A stretch of DNA of 7,734 nt from assembly GCA_026394095.1 (NCBI GenBank), contig JAPKYY010001028.1, positions 1-7,734 of the forward strand, in the 5' to 3' direction. The notes under the pieces are model-generated. The model saw only the letters and a program-made list of their open reading frames with translations, had not been told where the DNA came from and did not search any database. Shown piece by piece: positions 1 to 7,734 of the stretch. A program made the position numbers and the translations under genes. How positions within the stretch are numbered: the stretch's first letter is position 1; every line of letters begins with the position of its first letter. The DNA comes from Acidobacteriota bacterium (GTDB taxonomy: Bacteria; Acidobacteriota; Terriglobia; Bryobacterales; Bryobacteraceae).

Positions 1-1602
1 ATCGTCTTTTAACTGATAGGCGGAGACATTGACGCTAATTTCCATTTCGGGCCTCTCTGGGAACTCTTGCCGCCAGCGCTGCATTGTTTGGCTAGCCTCA
101 CGCAGAACCCACGCACCCAAAGGAATCATCATTCCGCTATCTTCTGCAATCGGAATAAACTTGTCTGGAGGTACCAGGCCCCTCACTGGATGGCGCCAGC
201 GTAAAAGAGCCTCAAAGCCGGAAATCGAGCCTTTCTTTAAGTCTATTTTTGCCTGGTAGAAGACAACAAACTGATTCCGCTCCAGAGCCAGGCGCAAATC
301 GTTTTCCAACTCCAGCCGCTCGATGCCGCGTCCACGCATCTTTTCTTCAAAGGTTTTGATTTGGCCGCGACCTTCCAGCTTGGCCTGTCCGAGTGCGGTT
401 GTGGCCATCAGGATCAGGTCTTCTGGTGTACCCAGCGACTGCTGCACCCGTACCAGCCCCAGATTGGCGCTTGAAAAGAGTTTTCTCCCCTCGATCTCTA
501 GCGGAACCTCGATTGATGTGATCAGGTATTCGGCGGTTTCTTCTGCTGTTTCACCATCAATTTCACTTTCGAGCAGAATGCCAATTTGATCCGCATCGAT
601 GTAGGTGAGTAACGGCATCGCAGCTGAGCCTGAAACAAGAGACTTACCGAGCACAGTGGAGATTCGCTCTGCCATTTCAACAATTAGCTTCTGCCCGGCG
701 GCCGCTCCCATACTGTCGGATACCAGTTTGAAACGATCCACTGACAAAATCATTAGCACTTGACCGGTTCTGGGCTCTTCCAACTCTTCAAGCAGGCGCA
801 ACCGATTCTCGAGGCCAACGGCCTCATTCCAATACTTAGCCCTCGTGATATCCAGAATCGCGCCTACCAGCCGTTCCGGATTGCCCTGTTTGTTGCGTTG
901 CACGGTTGCTCGCATTTGCAAGACCCGGTAGTTTCCGTCTGCCTGTCGCATGCGTGATTCCCACTCCAGGCGGTCTTCGACTTCGCCGCTCTTCCATCGG
1001 CTGAGTGATTCTCTTAGTGCTGCGCTATCCCGTGGGTGCAGGCGTGAGAGCCAGAACTCGCAGTCGCCGCCTTCCCAGTCTGTCAGGCCGGAAATCGTTT
1101 GCCATTCTTTGGATGCGTAAAATTCACCAGTGTTCAGATTCCAGTCGAAGATGCCCGACTGGTTGCTGGTTACGGCCATGCTGAGACGCTCTTCACTGGC
1201 CCTGAGCAGGCGGTCGGCATCTCTGCGTATCAGTTGTGCCTCAACACGCGCCAGTGTTACCGGAAAGTCGATTGGTTTGGTCACGTAATCGTTAGCCCCG
1301 GTGGACAATGCCTCCACCACACGTGCGCTATCATTTACCGCCGTAACCATAATTACCGGCAAGTCTGATTGACTTTGGGTTGCGCGCAATAGCCTCAACA
1401 AGTCGATGCCATTCATTTCGGGCATCATGTAGTCGAGCAGGATCAAGTCAATCTTTTCCCGCTCAATCACGGCGAGTGCTTCTTGTGCGCTAGCTGCCAT
1501 CTCAACTTCAAAGCCAGCTTTCCTAAGCCTTCTTGAGAGCAAGTCGCGGTTTGGCTCTTCATCATCGACAACCAACAATCGGTTCGCTTGAAGCTCGGCC
1601 AT
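1..1602 (-). CDS. Response regulator REC-PAS-degenerate GGDEF-EAL, predicted c-di-GMP phosphodiesterase (3' end missing)
   Basis: Reading the minus strand from the ATG at 1602-1600 gives 534 codons open to the window edge, so the C-terminal part of EAL is missing. Residues 7-125 are a receiver domain with acidic residues D13/D14, phosphoacceptor D57 (LLDYMMPEMNG), T87 and K109. Residues 134-256 are a PAS domain of the PAS_3 kind, ending in a typical DIT exit motif. Residues 260-418 are GGDEF-like but degenerate: the signature is replaced by DADQI (336-340), the first metal-ligand Asp of DxDxFK is S287, and no RxxD inhibitory site precedes it. Residues 428-534 are the start of EAL, with EALLRW (E464) and the VNVS asparagine N525 present. 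Later catalytic residues lie outside the window. Expected role: cytosolic, phosphorylation-controlled c-di-GMP hydrolysis, with GGDEF only structural or regulatory. It lies one base after the lone receiver gene, has its own good Shine-Dalgarno, and is probably driven by the H-NOX/HNOBA kinase encoded divergently (inferred). Confidence 0.93.
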   Translation of the reverse strand, partial: MAELQANRLLVVDDEEPNRDLLSRRLRKAGFEVEMAASAQEALAVIEREKIDLILLDYMMPEMNGIDLLRLLRATQSQSDLPVIMVTAVNDSARVVEALSTGANDYVTKPIDFPVTLARVEAQLIRRDADRLLRASEERLSMAVTSNQSGIFDWNLNTGEFYASKEWQTISGLTDWEGGDCEFWLSRLHPRDSAALRESLSRWKSGEVEDRLEWESRMRQADGNYRVLQMRATVQRNKQGNPERLVGAILDITRAKYWNEAVGLENRLRLLEELEEPRTGQVLMILSVDRFKLVSDSMGAAAGQKLIVEMAERISTVLGKSLVSGSAAMPLLTYIDADQIGILLESEIDGETAEETAEYLITSIEVPLEIEGRKLFSSANLGLVRVQQSLGTPEDLILMATTALGQAKLEGRGQIKTFEEKMRGRGIERLELENDLRLALERNQFVVFYQAKIDLKKGSISGFEALLRWRHPVRGLVPPDKFIPIAEDSGMMIPLGAWVLREASQTMQRWRQEFPERPEMEISVNVSAYQLKDD

Positions 1603-1603
1603 T

Positions 1604-2017
1604 CTAGATACCCTCCCCTTGTCTTCCGTCCGTAGGAGCCGATCCCGTTTGGCACCTGGCTAAGAGAGCTTTGATCTTTGTCAACAAAGCCTCAAGCTGA
1701 ATTGGCTTGGTCTCAAAATCGTCGCAACCTGCTGCCAGGGCACGCTCTCGATCCTCGCTTCTTGCGTAAGCTGTGAGTGCTAAAACCGGGATATGTTTTG
1801 TTGCTGGCTCAGCCTTTAGCCTGCGCGTCAGTTCACAGCCATCCATGCCGGGAAGCCCCAAGTCGACCACGATCAGATCGGGGCTCTCTTGTGCTGCCAT
1901 TTTTAGACCATGGTCTCCATCGATGGCTTCTACAACCAGATAGTTGCGTTTTGACAGGCGCCTGGTGATGAGGTCGCGATTCATTTCGTTGTCTTCGACG
2001 ATAAGGATTTTTGCCAT
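1604..2017 (-). CDS. Single-domain response regulator (REC only)
   Basis: The 137-residue protein is one CheY-like receiver with a short polar tail. It has the full phosphorylation site: E8/D9 acidic pair, phosphoacceptor D52 (VVDLGLPGMDG), T82 and K104 followed by Pro. There is no output domain, so it must act by protein contact, as a phosphate carrier, or as a competing phosphate sink. It is the first gene of a minus-strand operon; its TAG is one base before the ATG of the REC-PAS-GGDEF-EAL gene, which suggests translational coupling. Its receiver shares an NRDL(I/L)xRRL segment after the acidic patch with the downstream REC, so the two may be paralogues. The chosen ATG gives the standard MAKILIVED receiver start; no strong Shine-Dalgarno is visible before it. 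Family assignment is certain. Pairing with the divergent H-NOX kinase is inferred from location, and no HPt protein that would make a longer phosphorelay is visible. Confidence 0.95.
   Translation of the reverse strand: MAKILIVEDNEMNRDLITRRLSKRNYLVVEAIDGDHGLKMAAQESPDLIVVDLGLPGMDGCELTRRLKAEPATKHIPVLALTAYARSEDRERALAAGCDDFETKPIQLEALLTKIKALLARCQTGSAPTDGRQGEGI
1611..1619 (-). promoter_or_regulatory. Ribosome binding site of the REC-PAS-GGDEF-EAL gene
   Basis: On the minus strand AGGGGAGGG ends 8 bases before the ATG at 1602. It lies inside the last codons of the upstream receiver gene, so the second gene can be translated by re-initiation and independently. It supports the start chosen for the EAL protein. 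Confidence 0.75.
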
Positions 2018-2066
2018 GGATCACGCTACGCTGAACTACCTTTGCCAACTAGCCCAACGTTCATAT

Positions 2067-2106
2067 CGGCAAGCGGACTCATTGCTTGAATTGATTCCCG
2101 GCAAGC
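2067..2106. repeat. CAAGC/GCTTG repeat cluster, possible activator site
   Basis: The octamer CGGCAAGC occurs at 2067-2074 and 2099-2106, 32 bases apart (about three helical turns), with GCTTG, the reverse complement of CAAGC, between them at 2084-2088. The cluster lies roughly 50-90 bases upstream of the start site predicted from the sigma-54 motif, where enhancer-binding proteins may bind. The units are short and could occur by chance; no known operator consensus is recognised. It could equally serve the divergent receiver gene. Confidence 0.25.
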
Positions 2107-2131
2107 TGTGTTCCAAAACGGTACGGCTCTT

Positions 2132-2147
2132 TGGCACAGAAATTGCA
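2132..2147 (+). promoter_or_regulatory. Putative sigma-54 (RpoN) -24/-12 promoter for the H-NOX/kinase operon
   Basis: TGGCAC-N5-TTGCA matches the sigma-54 consensus, with the invariant GG (2133-2134) and GC (2145-2146) correctly spaced. Transcription would begin about 12 bases downstream, near 2157-2158, giving a leader of about 30 bases with a Shine-Dalgarno-like AAAGGA before the ATG at 2187. The motif lies in the only non-coding gap between the divergent operons, on the correct strand. It implies that expression needs RpoN plus a bacterial enhancer-binding protein; no such activator is encoded in the window. Confidence 0.65.
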
Positions 2148-2167
2148 TTAATACTGCCGGATCGAAG

Positions 2168-2173
2168 AAAGGA
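2168..2173 (+). promoter_or_regulatory. Ribosome binding site of the H-NOX gene
   Basis: AAAGGA lies 13 bases before the ATG at 2187, a somewhat long spacing. It falls downstream of the transcription start predicted from the sigma-54 motif, so both signals agree on the 2187 start rather than the in-frame ATGs at 1944 or 2016. Confidence 0.5.
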
Positions 2174-2186
2174 ATCCCAATTTGTT

Positions 2187-2732
2187 ATGTACGGAATGGT
2201 AAACAAGGCACTGGAAGAAATGGTCTGCGATGCTCACGGTGAAGAAGTTTGGGAGAAGATCAAACTTAAGTCGGGCGTTGACGTCGACGTTTTTATCAGT
2301 CAGGAGGGCTATCCAGATGAGATGACATACCAACTCGTCGGGGCTGCCAGTGAGGTGCTCAATGCCCCGGCTGCTGATCTTTTGGAGGCCTTTGGCGGGC
2401 ACTGGGTGCTAAAGACGGCGGTAAAGGGCTATGGCCATCTCATGACGGCTGTAGGCGCTAATCTCAAAGAATTTCTGGTTTATCTGCCAAATTTTCATAC
2501 CCGCGTTAGTTTGATATTTCCTCATCTGAATCCACCTCGCTTTTTGTGCTCAGAAGTCACAGACAATTCACTGAACCTCCATTACTACTCAGACAGGCCC
2601 GGTCTCGCTCCATTTGTTCGGGGGCTGGTGAAAGGATTGGGCCAGCACTACAAAACCGAAGTTGCTGTTGAACAGACTGGATTTCGTGGGCCAGATCTGG
2701 ATCATGACATTTTCAAAGTGAACTGGTCTTAA
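2187..2732 (+). CDS. hnoX: Stand-alone H-NOX haem nitric-oxide sensor
   Basis: This 181-residue protein is a full-length H-NOX domain (HNOB family, related to soluble guanylate cyclase beta). It starts with the family-typical MYGMVNKALEEMV. Visible haem-pocket features are the proximal ligand H104 (NFHTRV, followed by FPHLNPP) and the propionate-binding YxSxR motif Y133/S135/R137. By my hand alignment with Thermoanaerobacter H-NOX, its distal Tyr140 corresponds to P142, Trp9 to L9 and Asn74 to W73. The O2-stabilising hydrogen-bond network is therefore absent and NO selectivity is expected. Only two cysteines exist (14 and 121), so the C-terminal zinc/cysteine site of some proteobacterial H-NOX proteins is not evident. 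The protein is cytosolic, without signal peptide or membrane segment. The open frame continues upstream (ATGs at 1944 and 2016), but family length, the Shine-Dalgarno and the sigma-54 motif favour 2187. It should bind and control the HNOBA kinase encoded 8 bases downstream. Confidence 0.95.
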   Translation: MYGMVNKALEEMVCDAHGEEVWEKIKLKSGVDVDVFISQEGYPDEMTYQLVGAASEVLNAPAADLLEAFGGHWVLKTAVKGYGHLMTAVGANLKEFLVYLPNFHTRVSLIFPHLNPPRFLCSEVTDNSLNLHYYSDRPGLAPFVRGLVKGLGQHYKTEVAVEQTGFRGPDLDHDIFKVNWS

Positions 2733-2740
2733 GATTCGCC

Positions 2741-5617
2741 ATGCCTGCGACGCCGTTGCTCAATTTCCCCAAGCCGCTGCTGGATCAGCTCTTCCCTTAT
2801 CACCTTGTACTGGATCAGAATTTCAAGGTTGTTGATATCGGCGATTGCCTCGCCAGGATTCAACCCGAGCTTGCGGTTGGCGATCCGATGGAGAAAGCTT
2901 TTACTCTGGAGCGGCCGAAGATTGGGCTCGACTTTGATGAATTCAGCGAGAATCTCAATATGCTCTTCGCCTTTGAGGAGAAGAGCAATCGGTACCGTTT
3001 GCGTGGGCAAATACTGCTATCTGAAGATGACAGAAGAATCATTTTTTTGTGTTCCCCCTGGATCAGCGATCTCGATGTTCTCTGGCGCTTAGGCCTTGGT
3101 CTGAATGATTTCCCCTTGCACGATGCCAGTGTCGATGTTCTTCAGGTTTTACAGTCACAGAAAATGATGGTGGAAGACCTCAAGAACCTAAACACCAGGC
3201 TGACAAATCAGCGAGCGGCCTTGCGTGAGTCCAACCAACAACTTCTCGATCGCCAGGAACAGATGCGGCGGCTCTCACTGGTGGCGGCGCAAACAACAAG
3301 CCCAGTTATTCTTGCCGATGCCAACGATCGCGTGGAGTGGGTAAATCAAGCCTTTACAAATTTGACCGGTTACTCGCTGGAAGAAGTGAAGGGTCGCATA
3401 CCCTCTTCTTTCCTCTGTGGCCCTGAAACCGATCCGAAAACGCTGGAGATCATCACTGAAAGTAACTTGGCTGGCACGCCGTTTAGTTGTGAGATTGTCA
3501 ACTATACCAAGGCTGGAAAAGCGTACTGGCTAGATCTTGAAGTACATCCGATTCGGGATGAAAATGGTGGAAATGCTGGGTTTATGGCGATTCAGCATGA
3601 CTTGACTGCGAGGCGTCTGGCCGCCCGATATGCGGAAGTTGAATATTCGATCACTCGTCTTCTGGCGGAGCAGCAGGATGCCTCATATTGCCTCAAGGCA
3701 CTCCTCGCCCTTATCGGCAAAAAAATGGGCTATTGTGCCGGACTTTTTTGGAGTCCCACAGAAGACAAGACTCAACTGACTTGCCGCCATGTCTGGGCGC
3801 AGCCCTCGATTGAAGATTCTGAGTTTCTAGTTTATAGCCGGGTCATGGGATTCGCTCCTGGCATTGGTCTGCCGGGCTCCGTTTGGGCGGAGGCTAAGTC
3901 TCGCTGGATGCCAGATCTCTCAAAGGAGACCAATTTCTCTCGCCTTGGCATCGCATCTAACAGTGGAGTTCGCAGTGGATTTGGCTTCCCCATCCTTGCC
4001 AATGGCAATTTCTTCGGGATGATTGAGTTTTTCGATTTCGAAGTTCGAGAACCTGATTCCACTCTGCTCGACATGTTTAGTCGTATTGGCCTTCAGATCG
4101 GTCAGGCCATGGAACGTTCGGAGGCCGAAGCCAAACGCGCCGAACTCCTTTCACTACTTCAAGCCATTTTTGATGCCACTGACAATGGTATTGTTGTCAC
4201 GAATCTGAAGCAGGAGATCGTGAGTCAGAACCAGCGCATGATTGATCTGTGGAGAGTGCCGCCAGAGTTTCTGAATCCAAACCAAATTGATTCACTCCGC
4301 GAATTCATCCGCGAGCAGTTAGTCGATCCTCAAAGTTTTATTGACCGCATCCGTGAACTTCAGGCAGATCCCCGACAAACTAGCCGTGACGTGGTTCATT
4401 TCAAGGATGGAAGGGTTTTGGATCGCTACTCGCAGGCCCATATCATTGGCGACCATGTTTTTGGGCGGGTTTGGAGTTACCGTGACGTCACGGATCAGGC
4501 CAAATCCGAAGAGGCCTTACGGGAGAGTGAAGCCCGCTTTCGAGTGGTTGCCGAAACAGCTTCGGATGGGATTCTCACAATCGATGAGCGCGACCAGGTT
4601 CTCTATGCCAACGCTGCAGCTTCCCGCATTTTCACTTACCCTAAGGGCAGTCTTATTGGGATGCCGCTACAAGATCTGATTCCCGTAGGAATTAGCCACT
4701 CCTTTTGTTCCCTGCAGTCGTTTGAAGTTCTTGGATTGAACAAATCTGGCATTTATCTGCCGCTTGAAGTCTCCGTTGGAGAATCAACGATTGCGGGTGA
4801 AAATCAATTGACCGTCATATTCCGCGACATCACAGAACGCAAGCGCGTAGAATCGCAGCTGCAAGAGGCGAAAGAACAGGCTGAAGCTTCCAATCGATCT
4901 AAGAGCGAATTTCTCGCCAACATGAGTCATGAGCTAAGAACGCCATTGAACGCGATCCTTGGTTACTCGGAAATTATCGCCGAGGATGCTACTGACAATG
5001 GTCATACCGAATATCTGAGCGATCTCAACCGGATCCTCACCGCTGGGCGGCACTTGCTTTCACTCATAAACGACATTTTGGATTTATCCAAAATTGAAGC
5101 CGGCAAGATGATCATTCAGCCTGAATGGATCAATGTCGAAACCCTTGTTGAAGAATGCATTGCCACAGTAAAACCACTGGCTGCCAAGAACAACAACAAA
5201 ATCGTTGTGCATCCCTGGAGTCCGCTTGGTTCTTACTGGACTGATCCCACTCGCTTCCGTCAAAGTTTGTTCAATCTTTTGAGCAATGCCTGCAAATTCA
5301 CCCAAAACGGCCAGGTTGAGCTGTCCATGCAACCAGAAATGATCGAAGGTAAGGAATGGACTCACTGGTGCGTTCGGGACAACGGTAAAGGAATCAGTGA
5401 AGAAGATCAACAAAAACTCTTTACTGCCTTCACGCAGGTGAACTCATCAAGTTCGAAGAACGAAGGAGGTACCGGTCTGGGGCTGGCAATCACCAGAAGG
5501 CTTTGCGATGCGATGGGCGGGAAAATCGAACTCAAGAGCGCACTTGGAGAAGGCTCTGCGTTCACGATCACCCTTCCTCGATTGAAATTAAGCGAACTTG
5601 ATGACTCGATGCTTTAG
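2741..5617 (+). CDS. HNOBA-PAS-GAF-PAS-PAS sensor histidine kinase, H-NOX partner
   Basis: This 958-residue soluble kinase has no membrane segment. Residues about 14-145 are an HNOBA domain: FPYHLVLD start, ERP at 57-59, RLRGQ at 86-90, SPWISDL at 105-111 and LNDFPLHD at 121-128. A coiled-coil linker (about 140-178) follows. Then come PAS (179-290), GAF (about 297-460, GIGLPGSVWA), a second PAS (468-587, DVTD exit) and a third PAS (588-700, DITER exit). The HisKA domain (717-785) holds phosphoacceptor H730 in MSHELRTPLN. The HATPase domain (about 830-947) has N-box N845/N849, G1 DNGKGI (880-885) and G2 GGTGLGLAI, so it should be catalytically active. There is no C-terminal receiver or HPt domain, so phosphate must pass to separate receivers; the two encoded divergently are the obvious candidates. 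HNOBA is known as the partner region of H-NOX in guanylate cyclases and bacterial kinases. The gene follows H-NOX by 8 bases without a clear Shine-Dalgarno, suggesting translational coupling. Its TAG overlaps the stop of the convergent gene. Confidence 0.95.
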   Translation: MPATPLLNFPKPLLDQLFPYHLVLDQNFKVVDIGDCLARIQPELAVGDPMEKAFTLERPKIGLDFDEFSENLNMLFAFEEKSNRYRLRGQILLSEDDRRIIFLCSPWISDLDVLWRLGLGLNDFPLHDASVDVLQVLQSQKMMVEDLKNLNTRLTNQRAALRESNQQLLDRQEQMRRLSLVAAQTTSPVILADANDRVEWVNQAFTNLTGYSLEEVKGRIPSSFLCGPETDPKTLEIITESNLAGTPFSCEIVNYTKAGKAYWLDLEVHPIRDENGGNAGFMAIQHDLTARRLAARYAEVEYSITRLLAEQQDASYCLKALLALIGKKMGYCAGLFWSPTEDKTQLTCRHVWAQPSIEDSEFLVYSRVMGFAPGIGLPGSVWAEAKSRWMPDLSKETNFSRLGIASNSGVRSGFGFPILANGNFFGMIEFFDFEVREPDSTLLDMFSRIGLQIGQAMERSEAEAKRAELLSLLQAIFDATDNGIVVTNLKQEIVSQNQRMIDLWRVPPEFLNPNQIDSLREFIREQLVDPQSFIDRIRELQADPRQTSRDVVHFKDGRVLDRYSQAHIIGDHVFGRVWSYRDVTDQAKSEEALRESEARFRVVAETASDGILTIDERDQVLYANAAASRIFTYPKGSLIGMPLQDLIPVGISHSFCSLQSFEVLGLNKSGIYLPLEVSVGESTIAGENQLTVIFRDITERKRVESQLQEAKEQAEASNRSKSEFLANMSHELRTPLNAILGYSEIIAEDATDNGHTEYLSDLNRILTAGRHLLSLINDILDLSKIEAGKMIIQPEWINVETLVEECIATVKPLAAKNNNKIVVHPWSPLGSYWTDPTRFRQSLFNLLSNACKFTQNGQVELSMQPEMIEGKEWTHWCVRDNGKGISEEDQQKLFTAFTQVNSSSSKNEGGTGLGLAITRRLCDAMGGKIELKSALGEGSAFTITLPRLKLSELDDSML

Positions 5618-7734
5618 GGCTTGGCCCCACGGATCCAGTTGAGGATCGTCTCATACTCCTCAGACGCGGATGCTTCACGAGTAGTTTTGCCCCAACGCGT
5701 TCCACCGCCATGGGTAGTGGTGTGCAGCGCAGGGTCTCCGGCATTGTCGTTCGGTCGTGTTGGCTTGAGCAACAGAAGGCTTCGTTGGGGTTCAGCCAAA
5801 TTCACTTCTCGCAAGACTGAGCTGAAATTGAACTGCGATTGCGTTTCGGTGAATCCGCCTTTGCCAGCCATGCGGAGAGGAAATTGGCCTTGCGTCGAGT
5901 GGCACAAAACGCAGGCCCGGCCGTCTCCATTCACTTTGGTCAGGATCGGCTGGACTTTCTGTTTAAAGTATTCGTAGTCGGGCTGCGGCAATTCTGGCTT
6001 GCTGCCTGTTCCTCGGAACCGGCCCAGTTCAGCGTGGTTCCAAACAAGCTCGGAGGCCGCCCGCTTCACTTGAGGATCCTTGTTATAGCGATTGAGTGCC
6101 GACAGACGCAATGAGAATCGTGATGGGTCGAGTGAATCAATCATGCGCCGTCGCACAACTCCCTGTGCCTTTTCCGCAAATTGCTTGCCCAGTACTGGAT
6201 TGGTCGGCTCAGCAATGTAGCTCTTGACGAAAATCTCAACCGCGGCAGTTTCCAGCGCGCGGTTGCCTGAAGCGAGAGCCTCCATCATGGTTGTGCGGAT
6301 CAGCGGGCCGTCGGCGATATGGGGGAATACTGCACTTGCTGCCAGCGCCTTGGCCATTGGGACCCCTTCTGGATGTAGCAAGAGGCTTTCCATGCGGCCT
6401 TGCAGATCGGAATTCCGCGTCAGACCTTCGCCTGGGGTCACAGCAGCCAGGGCGGGCAACAAAGTCTCCAGGGCCTCCCGGCCTCCCGGCTTCAACACAC
6501 CCAACAGCGCTCGAACCAAATCTTTCTCAAACTCGATGGGTTGTTCGAGCTTCAATCTGCCGCGGACATCGTTTTCAAAGACGAATCGTACATCCTGAGA
6601 ATGTGGGCCTGAAGCTAGGGCTATCACAGCCACCGCAAGGCGTCCACTCAAGCCCGCTGGAAATACGCTGAGCGCATGAATGGTGCTCTTGATGAGAGCC
6701 GGGTCGCCACTCTTCAGACAAGCCAGCAGTTCGTGCTCCAGGCCGGCTGTCACTTCGCCCAGATCGGGCAGCTCGCTATCGTTGCCAACACGAGTTTTGA
6801 AGAAGCGGTTGGCTGCTCCATAGCGGAAGGCCGCACTTTGCTGGTACGGTTCATAGCCGCCTTGGTGCAATTTGTCGACTCCGCGCGAGTATTCCGTAAA
6901 GTAGGCGGGCAAAACAACTTCACTGCGTTCCGCCAGATCCGGGGGCAATCCTGCGTGACGCTGTGGATGATCCCAGAGGGCCTGCAACAAAGCTTCTTTT
7001 GCACGGGGTGAGGCAGAGCTTAGTACAGCAGCCAAAGCATTCTGAACGCGAGTGCGTCGAGCGGCAAGTCCGGTAAGGGTTTTTTCCTGTTCGTCCGGAT
7101 CGGTGATTTGCGCATTCCAGGTGGCCAGATAGCCCTCATTCTCGTCGATCATTGTGTAGAGGGCCTGCTTCCAGGCGCCCTGCACTGTTTCGTTTGTTTC
7201 GAGGGCAATCCTGGTGCTCACGGTTCTCAATATGGCCGTTGCCATTCCGATCTGATCTGCCTGCCATCCGTACCACCGCGCCAGAGCTTTTGCAGCATAG
7301 AACCGTAGTAGTGGCTCTTTGTCTTCAGAGAGCCTGATGACTTTTCCTAGTAATTCACGATTCTTGCTCAGGTCCCGAAAATGACTCCAGAAAACACGAA
7401 TTCCCGCCAGCCGCTCTGCCGGGAGACGACTCTCGAGGAGCCGTTCTATCTCCGCAACATCTCCACTCTCCCGCAGCGTCCTCGCCACGGAGATGGCCGA
7501 CACCTTGGTGTCAACTGCAAATTTGGGTGCCGTGACCAAGCGCCCCAGGGGATCTCCTGAGACCCTCGAAAGTTTATGAAACATTGCCAGCTCACTCAGA
7601 GCCATAACCGCAAACTGAGTATCGCGGAATGGAGTATCGAAGGCTTTGTGCCGGGACTCTCCCTGCCACTCTCCGCTTAGTTTTTGTTTTGACAGACACA
7701 GGTCGTAGAGACGCTTGATTCGCGTGTCATTCAA
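5614..7734 (-). CDS. Large QW-motif/helical-repeat protein with C-terminal haem c domain (5' end missing)
   Basis: The frame is open from the right window edge to TAA (5616-5614), giving 706 residues; the true start lies outside, and the TTG at the edge is not evidence of one. The first residues contain a QW-type motif (Q17-x3-G21-x-W23) followed by FRDTQFAVMALSEL, like the last repeat of a squalene-cyclase/prenyltransferase-type alpha-barrel. Residues about 70-570 are alpha-helical HEAT-like repeats (for example EPLLRFYAAKALARW). The C-terminus (about 580-706) holds one haem c site, C608-V-L-C611-H612, then SLLLLKP, H675-GGG and a terminal ILNWIRG. This is the pattern of cytochrome-like domains in large Acidobacteriota and Planctomycetota proteins. 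The sixth haem ligand is uncertain: M622 lies close to the haem site and H671 or H675 are alternatives. Covalent haem implies export to the periplasm, although the signal peptide is not visible. Substrate and function are unknown to me, and no link to NO sensing is shown. Confidence 0.85.
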   Translation of the reverse strand: MNDTRIKRLYDLCLSKQKLSGEWQGESRHKAFDTPFRDTQFAVMALSELAMFHKLSRVSGDPLGRLVTAPKFAVDTKVSAISVARTLRESGDVAEIERLLESRLPAERLAGIRVFWSHFRDLSKNRELLGKVIRLSEDKEPLLRFYAAKALARWYGWQADQIGMATAILRTVSTRIALETNETVQGAWKQALYTMIDENEGYLATWNAQITDPDEQEKTLTGLAARRTRVQNALAAVLSSASPRAKEALLQALWDHPQRHAGLPPDLAERSEVVLPAYFTEYSRGVDKLHQGGYEPYQQSAAFRYGAANRFFKTRVGNDSELPDLGEVTAGLEHELLACLKSGDPALIKSTIHALSVFPAGLSGRLAVAVIALASGPHSQDVRFVFENDVRGRLKLEQPIEFEKDLVRALLGVLKPGGREALETLLPALAAVTPGEGLTRNSDLQGRMESLLLHPEGVPMAKALAASAVFPHIADGPLIRTTMMEALASGNRALETAAVEIFVKSYIAEPTNPVLGKQFAEKAQGVVRRRMIDSLDPSRFSLRLSALNRYNKDPQVKRAASELVWNHAELGRFRGTGSKPELPQPDYEYFKQKVQPILTKVNGDGRACVLCHSTQGQFPLRMAGKGGFTETQSQFNFSSVLREVNLAEPQRSLLLLKPTRPNDNAGDPALHTTTHGGGTRWGKTTREASASEEYETILNWIRGAKP

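Follow-up and report, generated by a model that had tools for sequence, protein, structure and literature searches.

We found that a contig of the Bryobacteraceae (Acidobacteriota) carries a block of four genes, conserved in part of one genus, that combines a nitric oxide (NO)-type sensor with a histidine kinase and a regulator of the c-di-GMP phosphodiesterase type. We consider it probable, from the domains encoded and their arrangement, that NO-bound H-NOX controls the kinase, and that the kinase phosphorylates the EAL phosphodiesterase and so sets c-di-GMP hydrolysis. The DNA analysed, here called the window, is the whole of contig C583 (7,734 bp) from genome G000, an assembly of 5.05 Mb in 1,077 contigs that is 89% complete. 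A preliminary description of this DNA had placed a lone H-NOX, an HNOBA kinase, a lone receiver and a REC-PAS-GGDEF-EAL protein in two divergent operons of a likely non-proteobacterial host; Pfam recovers all four proteins with their domains, and the host is indeed acidobacterial. The features are listed in Table 1.

Table 1. Positions of the features in the window (C583), and of the remainder of the EAL gene on contig C602.
Feature	Position	Strand	Basis
REC-PAS-GGDEF-EAL response regulator, 534 aa here, cut by contig end	1..1602	-	Pfam
Glu464 of the EAL domain	211-213		
Broken GGDEF site	near 601		
Asp57 of the EAL protein's receiver	1432-1434		
Lone receiver, 137 aa	1604..2017	-	Pfam Response_reg; orthologues in G055 and (partial) G152
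Asp52, predicted phospho-acceptor of the lone receiver	1862-1864		
Spacer, 169 bp, origin of both divergent operons	2018..2186	no strand	
sigma-54 promoter pattern, not kept in G055	2132-2147		exact match
H-NOX (HNOB) protein, 181 aa	2187..2732	+	Pfam HNOB
His104 of H-NOX	2496-2498		
Histidine kinase, 958 aa, HNOBA-PAS-GAF-PAS-PAS-HisKA-HATPase, no receiver	2741..5617	+	Pfam, profile, fold
His730, predicted phospho-accepting residue of the kinase	4928-4930		
Right neighbour, cut by contig	5614-7734		no Pfam match
EAL gene remainder, 139 codons	C602 11882-12301 of 12302		61% identity to the G055 protein

Within the operons there are 8 bases between the H-NOX stop and the kinase start and 1 base between the lone receiver and REC-PAS-GGDEF-EAL genes. 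A congener, G055, has a spacer of 171 bp in the same place. We rejected two earlier starts for H-NOX, one at 1944 given by the mechanical open reading frame and one at an ATG overlapping the receiver start, since homology begins only at MYG, base 2187; the Nostoc chain and the G055 gene both start at the equivalent of this base, and the spacer 5' of it is not conserved in G055. An Rfam scan of the window gave no match at gathering thresholds, and no sigma-70-type promoter or terminator pattern was found in 1900-2300. The sigma-54 promoter pattern TGGCAC-N5-TTGCA has an exact match 39 bases 5' of the H-NOX start. When one mismatch is tolerated, a match also turns up in 55 of 200 shuffles. The exact match is not kept in G055, and we do no more than note it as a sigma-54-like promoter.

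The H-NOX protein matched HNOB (PF07700) over profile positions 1-163 of 163 (6.3e-51, 172.9 bits against a cut-off of 25.5). We take His104 to be the proximal heme ligand and Tyr133, Ser135 and Arg137, which form a YxSxR motif, to be the propionate residues of H-NOX. Phe143 aligns with Met144 of the Nostoc H-NOX at what is presumably the distal tyrosine site of O2-binding H-NOX, and there is no tyrosine there. On these residues the window H-NOX is predicted to carry ferrous heme and to bind NO. Its identity is 71% to the H-NOX of G055, 56-61% to ten further family members and 38% to that of locus L021. Among solved structures its closest relatives were Nostoc Alr2278 (8e-59) and guanylate cyclase beta1 (3e-31). 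The Shewanella chains, so named in PMC9510103, came far below by search score (6ocv, 2e-14; 2kii, 2e-7).

The kinase has an HNOBA domain (2.7e-28, 99.4 bits) followed by PAS, GAF, PAS and PAS domains, and its core contains HisKA (4.9e-20, 71.8 bits) and HATPase_c (1.7e-27, 96.5 bits); Pfam found no receiver domain on it. By profile the HNOBA part matches soluble guanylate cyclase beta1 (5.6e-32) and a kinase PAS domain from Nostoc punctiforme (2p04, 6.9e-35). Residues 1-182 were modelled as a PAS domain and a long helix (mean pLDDT 83, pTM 0.64), and in a Foldseek search with this model the same proteins lead (guanylate cyclase 6.5e-13, 2p04 3.9e-11). By these profile and fold matches H-NOX and HNOBA together correspond to the front half of guanylate cyclase, divided between two proteins. 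Bacterial kinases with HNOBA were already on record (2p04, 2p08).

The long multi-domain sensor region of the kinase raises the question of whether NO is the main cue at all. The circuit could instead respond to redox state or to another ligand through H-NOX, or its PAS and GAF domains could dominate with H-NOX modulating them. Some H-NOX proteins may sense other cues according to PMC8738867, that of V. cholerae by way of a zinc-cysteine site. The only cysteines of the window H-NOX are Cys14 and Cys121, so it lacks the three-cysteine motif described in that review, and the heme histidine and the YxSxR residues are invariant in 13 of 13 aligned H-NOX. We regard a main cue other than NO as unlikely.

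The EAL protein begins with a receiver (Response_reg, 1.8e-30) followed by PAS_3 (8.3e-13) and GGDEF (9.5e-14), and the window holds profile positions 2-98 of 236 of its EAL domain (3.6e-26). We compared the three orthologues, namely those of the window, G055 and G152, another congener. The GGDEF motif is broken in all three, reading IDADQI, LESDLF and LEGDQF, respectively. The EAL residues are kept in all three, including the EAL Glu, NVS Asn, ITE Glu, DDFGTGYS, KID Lys, AEG Glu and GQGYLF; the set for the window protein was read from two contigs (C583 and C602), and the motifs of the G055 protein were aligned to the solved MorA. With GGDEF broken and the EAL residues kept, the predicted output is hydrolysis of c-di-GMP only. 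The NO-to-c-di-GMP circuit put forward in the preliminary description is still the best reading, but one ending in hydrolysis and not in the bifunctional enzyme that the domain names would imply. The host genome contains six GGDEF matches, the broken one of the window included, and five EAL matches in three genes, which lie on C257, on C981 and, in two pieces, on the window and C602.

Conservation between the window and G055 differs greatly from domain to domain. The receiver of the EAL protein is 80% identical, HisKA 77%, HATPase 71% and H-NOX 71%, followed by the EAL domain (70% and 61% in its two pieces), the last PAS of the kinase (60%) and the lone receiver (54%). The remaining kinase sensor domains are at 53% (first PAS), 48% (GAF), 47% (HNOBA) and 47% (second PAS), and the PAS and GGDEF domains of the EAL protein are lowest at 44% and 38%. 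The most conserved pair, HisKA and the receiver of the EAL protein, is suggestive of the core wire of the circuit. The 80% identity of this receiver is suggestive only, because receivers are often more conserved than output domains.

The lone receiver (Response_reg, 1.5e-27) could itself be the main target of the kinase, with the EAL protein fed by another kinase or active by default. It is the first gene of its operon and has all the residues for phosphorylation, Thr82 and Lys104 being present in addition to Asp52. However, it is much less conserved than the receiver of the EAL protein, both against G055 (54% vs 80%) and over the part shared with G152 (73% vs 96%). We also considered that it had split off from a hybrid kinase and rejected this, since it showed no special kinship to hybrid-kinase receivers and at most 44% identity to any receiver compared except its orthologue; this absence of kinship likewise speaks against its being the main target. 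We judge it improbable that the lone receiver takes that part, and retain the EAL protein as the predicted target.

Because the window is a whole contig, the EAL gene is cut at base 1. Its remainder was found at the end of C602, and the stretch between the two contigs, judged from G152, is about 15 unsequenced codons. Past the EAL end, C602 encodes a permease, a small open reading frame and an aminotransferase, which are the genes after the EAL gene in G055, and C602 therefore very likely adjoins C583. At the other end of the window the right neighbour converges with the kinase gene. By eye, its product has helical repeats and a CxxCH heme motif close to the end. The first part of this gene is probably on contig C39.

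The four-gene block occupies one common site in 3 of the 8 genomes of the genus: that of the window, G055, where it is whole, and G152, where it is split. In G055 the order of the four genes and the pair of flanking genes are unchanged. In G152 one contig carries the end of the kinase next to the left flank, and a second carries the receiver end and the full EAL protein next to the right flank; H-NOX was not seen and would fall in the gap between these contigs. The flanking genes are adjacent without the block in G150 (about 120 bases apart) and G151 (about 20). G150 retains, at about 4970-5076 of locus L248, 35 codons that match the last part of the EAL gene at 60% identity, scoring 1e-13 and 46.6 bits against at most 21.2 bits in 100 shuffles. 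This scar indicates that G150 once had the EAL gene and that most of the block was deleted, which may have been a single deletion. At the block site G129 has another gene, TetR-like by eye, and no orthologous flanks were seen in G104 and G146.

G150 and G152 carry an H-NOX system of another kind elsewhere in the genome. This is the sigma-54 type of the Bryobacteraceae, in which H-NOX is accompanied by a REC-sigma-54 activator and an HNOBA hybrid kinase with REC and Hpt. With this system elsewhere in its genome, G152 has both.

Since the surrounding genes keep their order as well, synteny by itself is no proof that the four genes are coupled. The H-NOX/kinase and receiver/EAL halves might be two systems kept together by the synteny of the genus, a reading consistent both with the syntenic flanks and with the occurrence of the H-NOX/kinase pair without the receiver/EAL half in other lineages. 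Yet each of the three genomes with any part of the block has both halves at the site, and the sites lacking the block keep nothing of either half except the EAL scar. This argues that the halves belong together, and we give a chance neighbourhood a low probability.

Under the coupled reading, NO would bind the ferrous heme of H-NOX, and H-NOX would dock on the HNOBA part of the kinase, which has the fold of the guanylate cyclase PAS domain and coiled coil. Kinase activity would then change, and with it the phosphate on Asp57 of the EAL protein and the rate of c-di-GMP hydrolysis. Phosphate may also pass to Asp52, with the lone receiver acting as a side branch or phosphate sink. Counting against this reading are the placing of the kinase and the EAL protein in opposite operons, the restriction of the layout to one genus among the loci searched, and the chance that G150 lost the block in a single deletion.

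We lean slightly towards a sign in which NO-bound H-NOX lowers kinase activity, leaving the phosphodiesterase less phosphorylated and less active, so that c-di-GMP would rise. This is by analogy to V. cholerae and S. oneidensis, where, as stated in PMC8738867, NO-bound H-NOX inhibits autophosphorylation of the kinase. The same finding argues against the opposite sign, in which NO-bound H-NOX would activate the kinase as it does guanylate cyclase by way of a like PAS and coiled-coil module, with phosphodiesterase activity going up and c-di-GMP down. The guanylate-cyclase/Nostoc type of both H-NOX and HNOBA favours activation, and we hold it to be a real possibility, although a less probable one.

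Across the family, H-NOX was found in 30 of 237 Bryobacteraceae genomes searched, with 34 matches in 33 loci, all of which were inspected. A sigma-54 regulator and an HNOBA kinase accompany H-NOX in 17 of these loci, and an HNOBA gene with no sigma-54 regulator seen in 7. Three have a GAF-GGDEF-EAL protein and one has HNOBA fused to GGDEF-EAL; one has a sigma-54 regulator at the contig end, two show no partner and two are of the window type (the window and G055), with the split G152 block additional. The same sensor pair is thus tied to several outputs in the family. The fusion (L162, 4767-8024, in the Bryobacteraceae genome G475) lies beside H-NOX and represents a kinase-free shortcut to c-di-GMP. 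In L020 (6150-8315, genome G070) H-NOX is followed by short, separate HNOBA and REC-Hpt pieces and preceded by a receiver piece, and this looks like a decayed sigma-54-type system.

H-NOX was present in 28 of 399 genomes of the class and 28 of 396 of the phylum. None of the 31 loci fetched from other families of the phylum was of the window type, and 3 had GAF-GGDEF-EAL beside H-NOX; of the phylum matches 20 were fetched, with G867, G816, G875 and one match of G599 left out. The weak H-NOX of L182, L183 and L227 were not re-found by the seeds used. We also scanned the best 80 of 141 loci of named relatives with phmmer and family-derived seeds at 1e-5, some of the contigs being shared with the other locus sets. 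Within 7 kb of H-NOX an HNOBA gene was found in 77 of these best 80 loci and a REC-sigma-54 regulator in 17 of them. No GGDEF or EAL domain was found in any of the best 80 (1.29 Mb in all), many of these loci ending at contig ends. The window-type layout is therefore rare. Among the loci searched it is conserved within one genus (three of eight genomes, with the G152 copy divided between two contigs) and was not seen beyond it.

Several other arrangements appeared in these searches. A second H-NOX lineage of the class is paired with the GAF-GGDEF-EAL protein (L022, L169, L170, L175, L176 and L178) and forms one side of a 91% branch in the H-NOX tree; L169 has two tandem H-NOX genes. Tandem H-NOX genes also occur in L212 and L215 (phylum family f19), beside a receiver protein, a kinase and a sigma-54 regulator. 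HNOBA is combined with GGDEF and EAL in the metagenomic and cyanobacterial proteins P0052 and P0061.

The two parts of the window kinase differ in kinship. Its sensor (residues 1-700) is collinear end to end with that of the family's sigma-54-type kinases, with up to 40% identity over 715 aa, and clusters in a tree with Hpt-bearing acidobacterial kinases at 100% SH-aLRT. Among the matches listed, kinases without HNOBA reach 57% identity to its core, and no other core of an HNOBA kinase exceeds 43%. In the core tree, which used at most 22 named HNOBA cores, it groups with non-HNOBA kinases at 100%. Protein searches gave 14 receiver-less kinases of the window type, with sensor identities of 41-78% (P0003-P0007, P0009, P0010, P0013, P0015 and P0080-P0084); P0082 is practically identical to the G055 kinase. 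These comparisons make it rather likely that the kinase is a chimera of a family-typical sensor and an exchanged catalytic core.

All trees were made by a quick method, and the topology tests were set after the BLAST results were seen. When the tree included 18 near kinases lacking HNOBA (taken at every sixth place from the 105 such kinases among 120 matches listed of 7,998 scored) and one long-branch sequence was left out, a clade of the window kinase type with the acidobacterial sigma-54 type was rejected (p 0.00013), as was a single clade of all HNOBA cores (p 0.0076). With 40 background kinases not picked by similarity, and with four long-branch sequences and five near-copies of the window kinase type left out, the clade with the sigma-54 type was not rejected (p 0.23). 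HNOBA kinases were intermingled with others in general in the background tree, and its p of 6.5e-57 against one HNOBA-core clade is for that reason not specific to the window type. HNOBA sensors seem, from these trees, to have changed cores more than once. It is conceivable that a guanylate cyclase-like front half moved from a sigma-54 output to a c-di-GMP phosphodiesterase by core exchange, converging independently on the HnoK/HnoB arrangement. We hold this tentatively, at a little under an even chance, because the outcome of the core-exchange test varies with the background kinases used.

The HnoK/HnoB pathway of Shewanella oneidensis and Vibrio cholerae is the nearest in plan, with H-NOX beside a kinase, a receiver-EAL protein as predicted target and further receivers as targets of the kinase (PMC8738867). 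The window differs in its Nostoc/guanylate cyclase type of H-NOX, its HNOBA-PAS-GAF-PAS-PAS kinase, the extra PAS and dead GGDEF of its EAL protein, and its lone receiver in place of the HnoC repressor and HnoD inhibitor. HnoK is not known to have an HNOBA domain, and among 14 control genomes H-NOX was found in Caulobacter and HNOBA in none. V. cholerae also lacks hnoC, according to PMC8738867. The likeness to Shewanella and Vibrio drawn in the preliminary description holds for the kinase and receiver-EAL protein beside H-NOX, and fails for H-NOX itself, whose nearest solved relatives are those of Nostoc and guanylate cyclase, the Shewanella chains ranking well below.

The window shares its H-NOX branch and its HNOBA domain with the Nostoc-type pairs of H-NOX and HNOBA kinase (Alr2278; PDB 2p04/2p08). 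We know of no c-di-GMP output for those pairs. The sigma-54-type systems of the Bryobacteraceae likewise have H-NOX beside an HNOBA kinase with a collinear sensor, whereas the window kinase has a core of other kinship without REC or Hpt, and an EAL output in place of the sigma-54 activator. Legionella pneumophila (Lpg1056/1057) and Shewanella woodyi have an H-NOX gene with a GGDEF-EAL gene, as given in PMC8738867. Those pairs have no intervening kinase; the EAL protein of the window, for its part, carries a receiver and a broken GGDEF motif. In the beta1 subunit of animal soluble guanylate cyclase, H-NOX is likewise followed by a PAS and coiled-coil module; in the window these are two separate proteins, and a histidine kinase replaces the cyclase.

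PMC8846402 states that HNOB and HNOBA perhaps occur in c-di-GMP proteins only with GGDEF, and places HNOB in auxiliary two-component proteins that modulate phosphodiesterases. The combination had been thought possibly undescribed, and we found no open-access paper joining H-NOX with Acidobacteri- or heme nitric oxide with Acidobacteriota. This is weak evidence of absence because subscription papers fall outside such a search.

Organisms with NO and c-di-GMP systems are tabulated in two reviews (PMC8738867 Table 1 and PMC8846402 Table 4). If our reading is true, NO-to-c-di-GMP logic would extend to Acidobacteriota, and with a guanylate-cyclase type of H-NOX. None of the organisms in either table is known to belong outside the Proteobacteria. 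A soluble H-NOX and an HNOBA kinase with a phosphate readout would allow a direct test of signalling between H-NOX and the PAS-coiled-coil module, a matter still to be settled in the animal enzyme. Since EAL matches occur in only three genes of this 89% complete genome, the switch could weigh heavily on the c-di-GMP pool of the host. The Bryobacteraceae, with one sensor pair joined to several outputs, would offer a natural series for the recombination of sensor and output.
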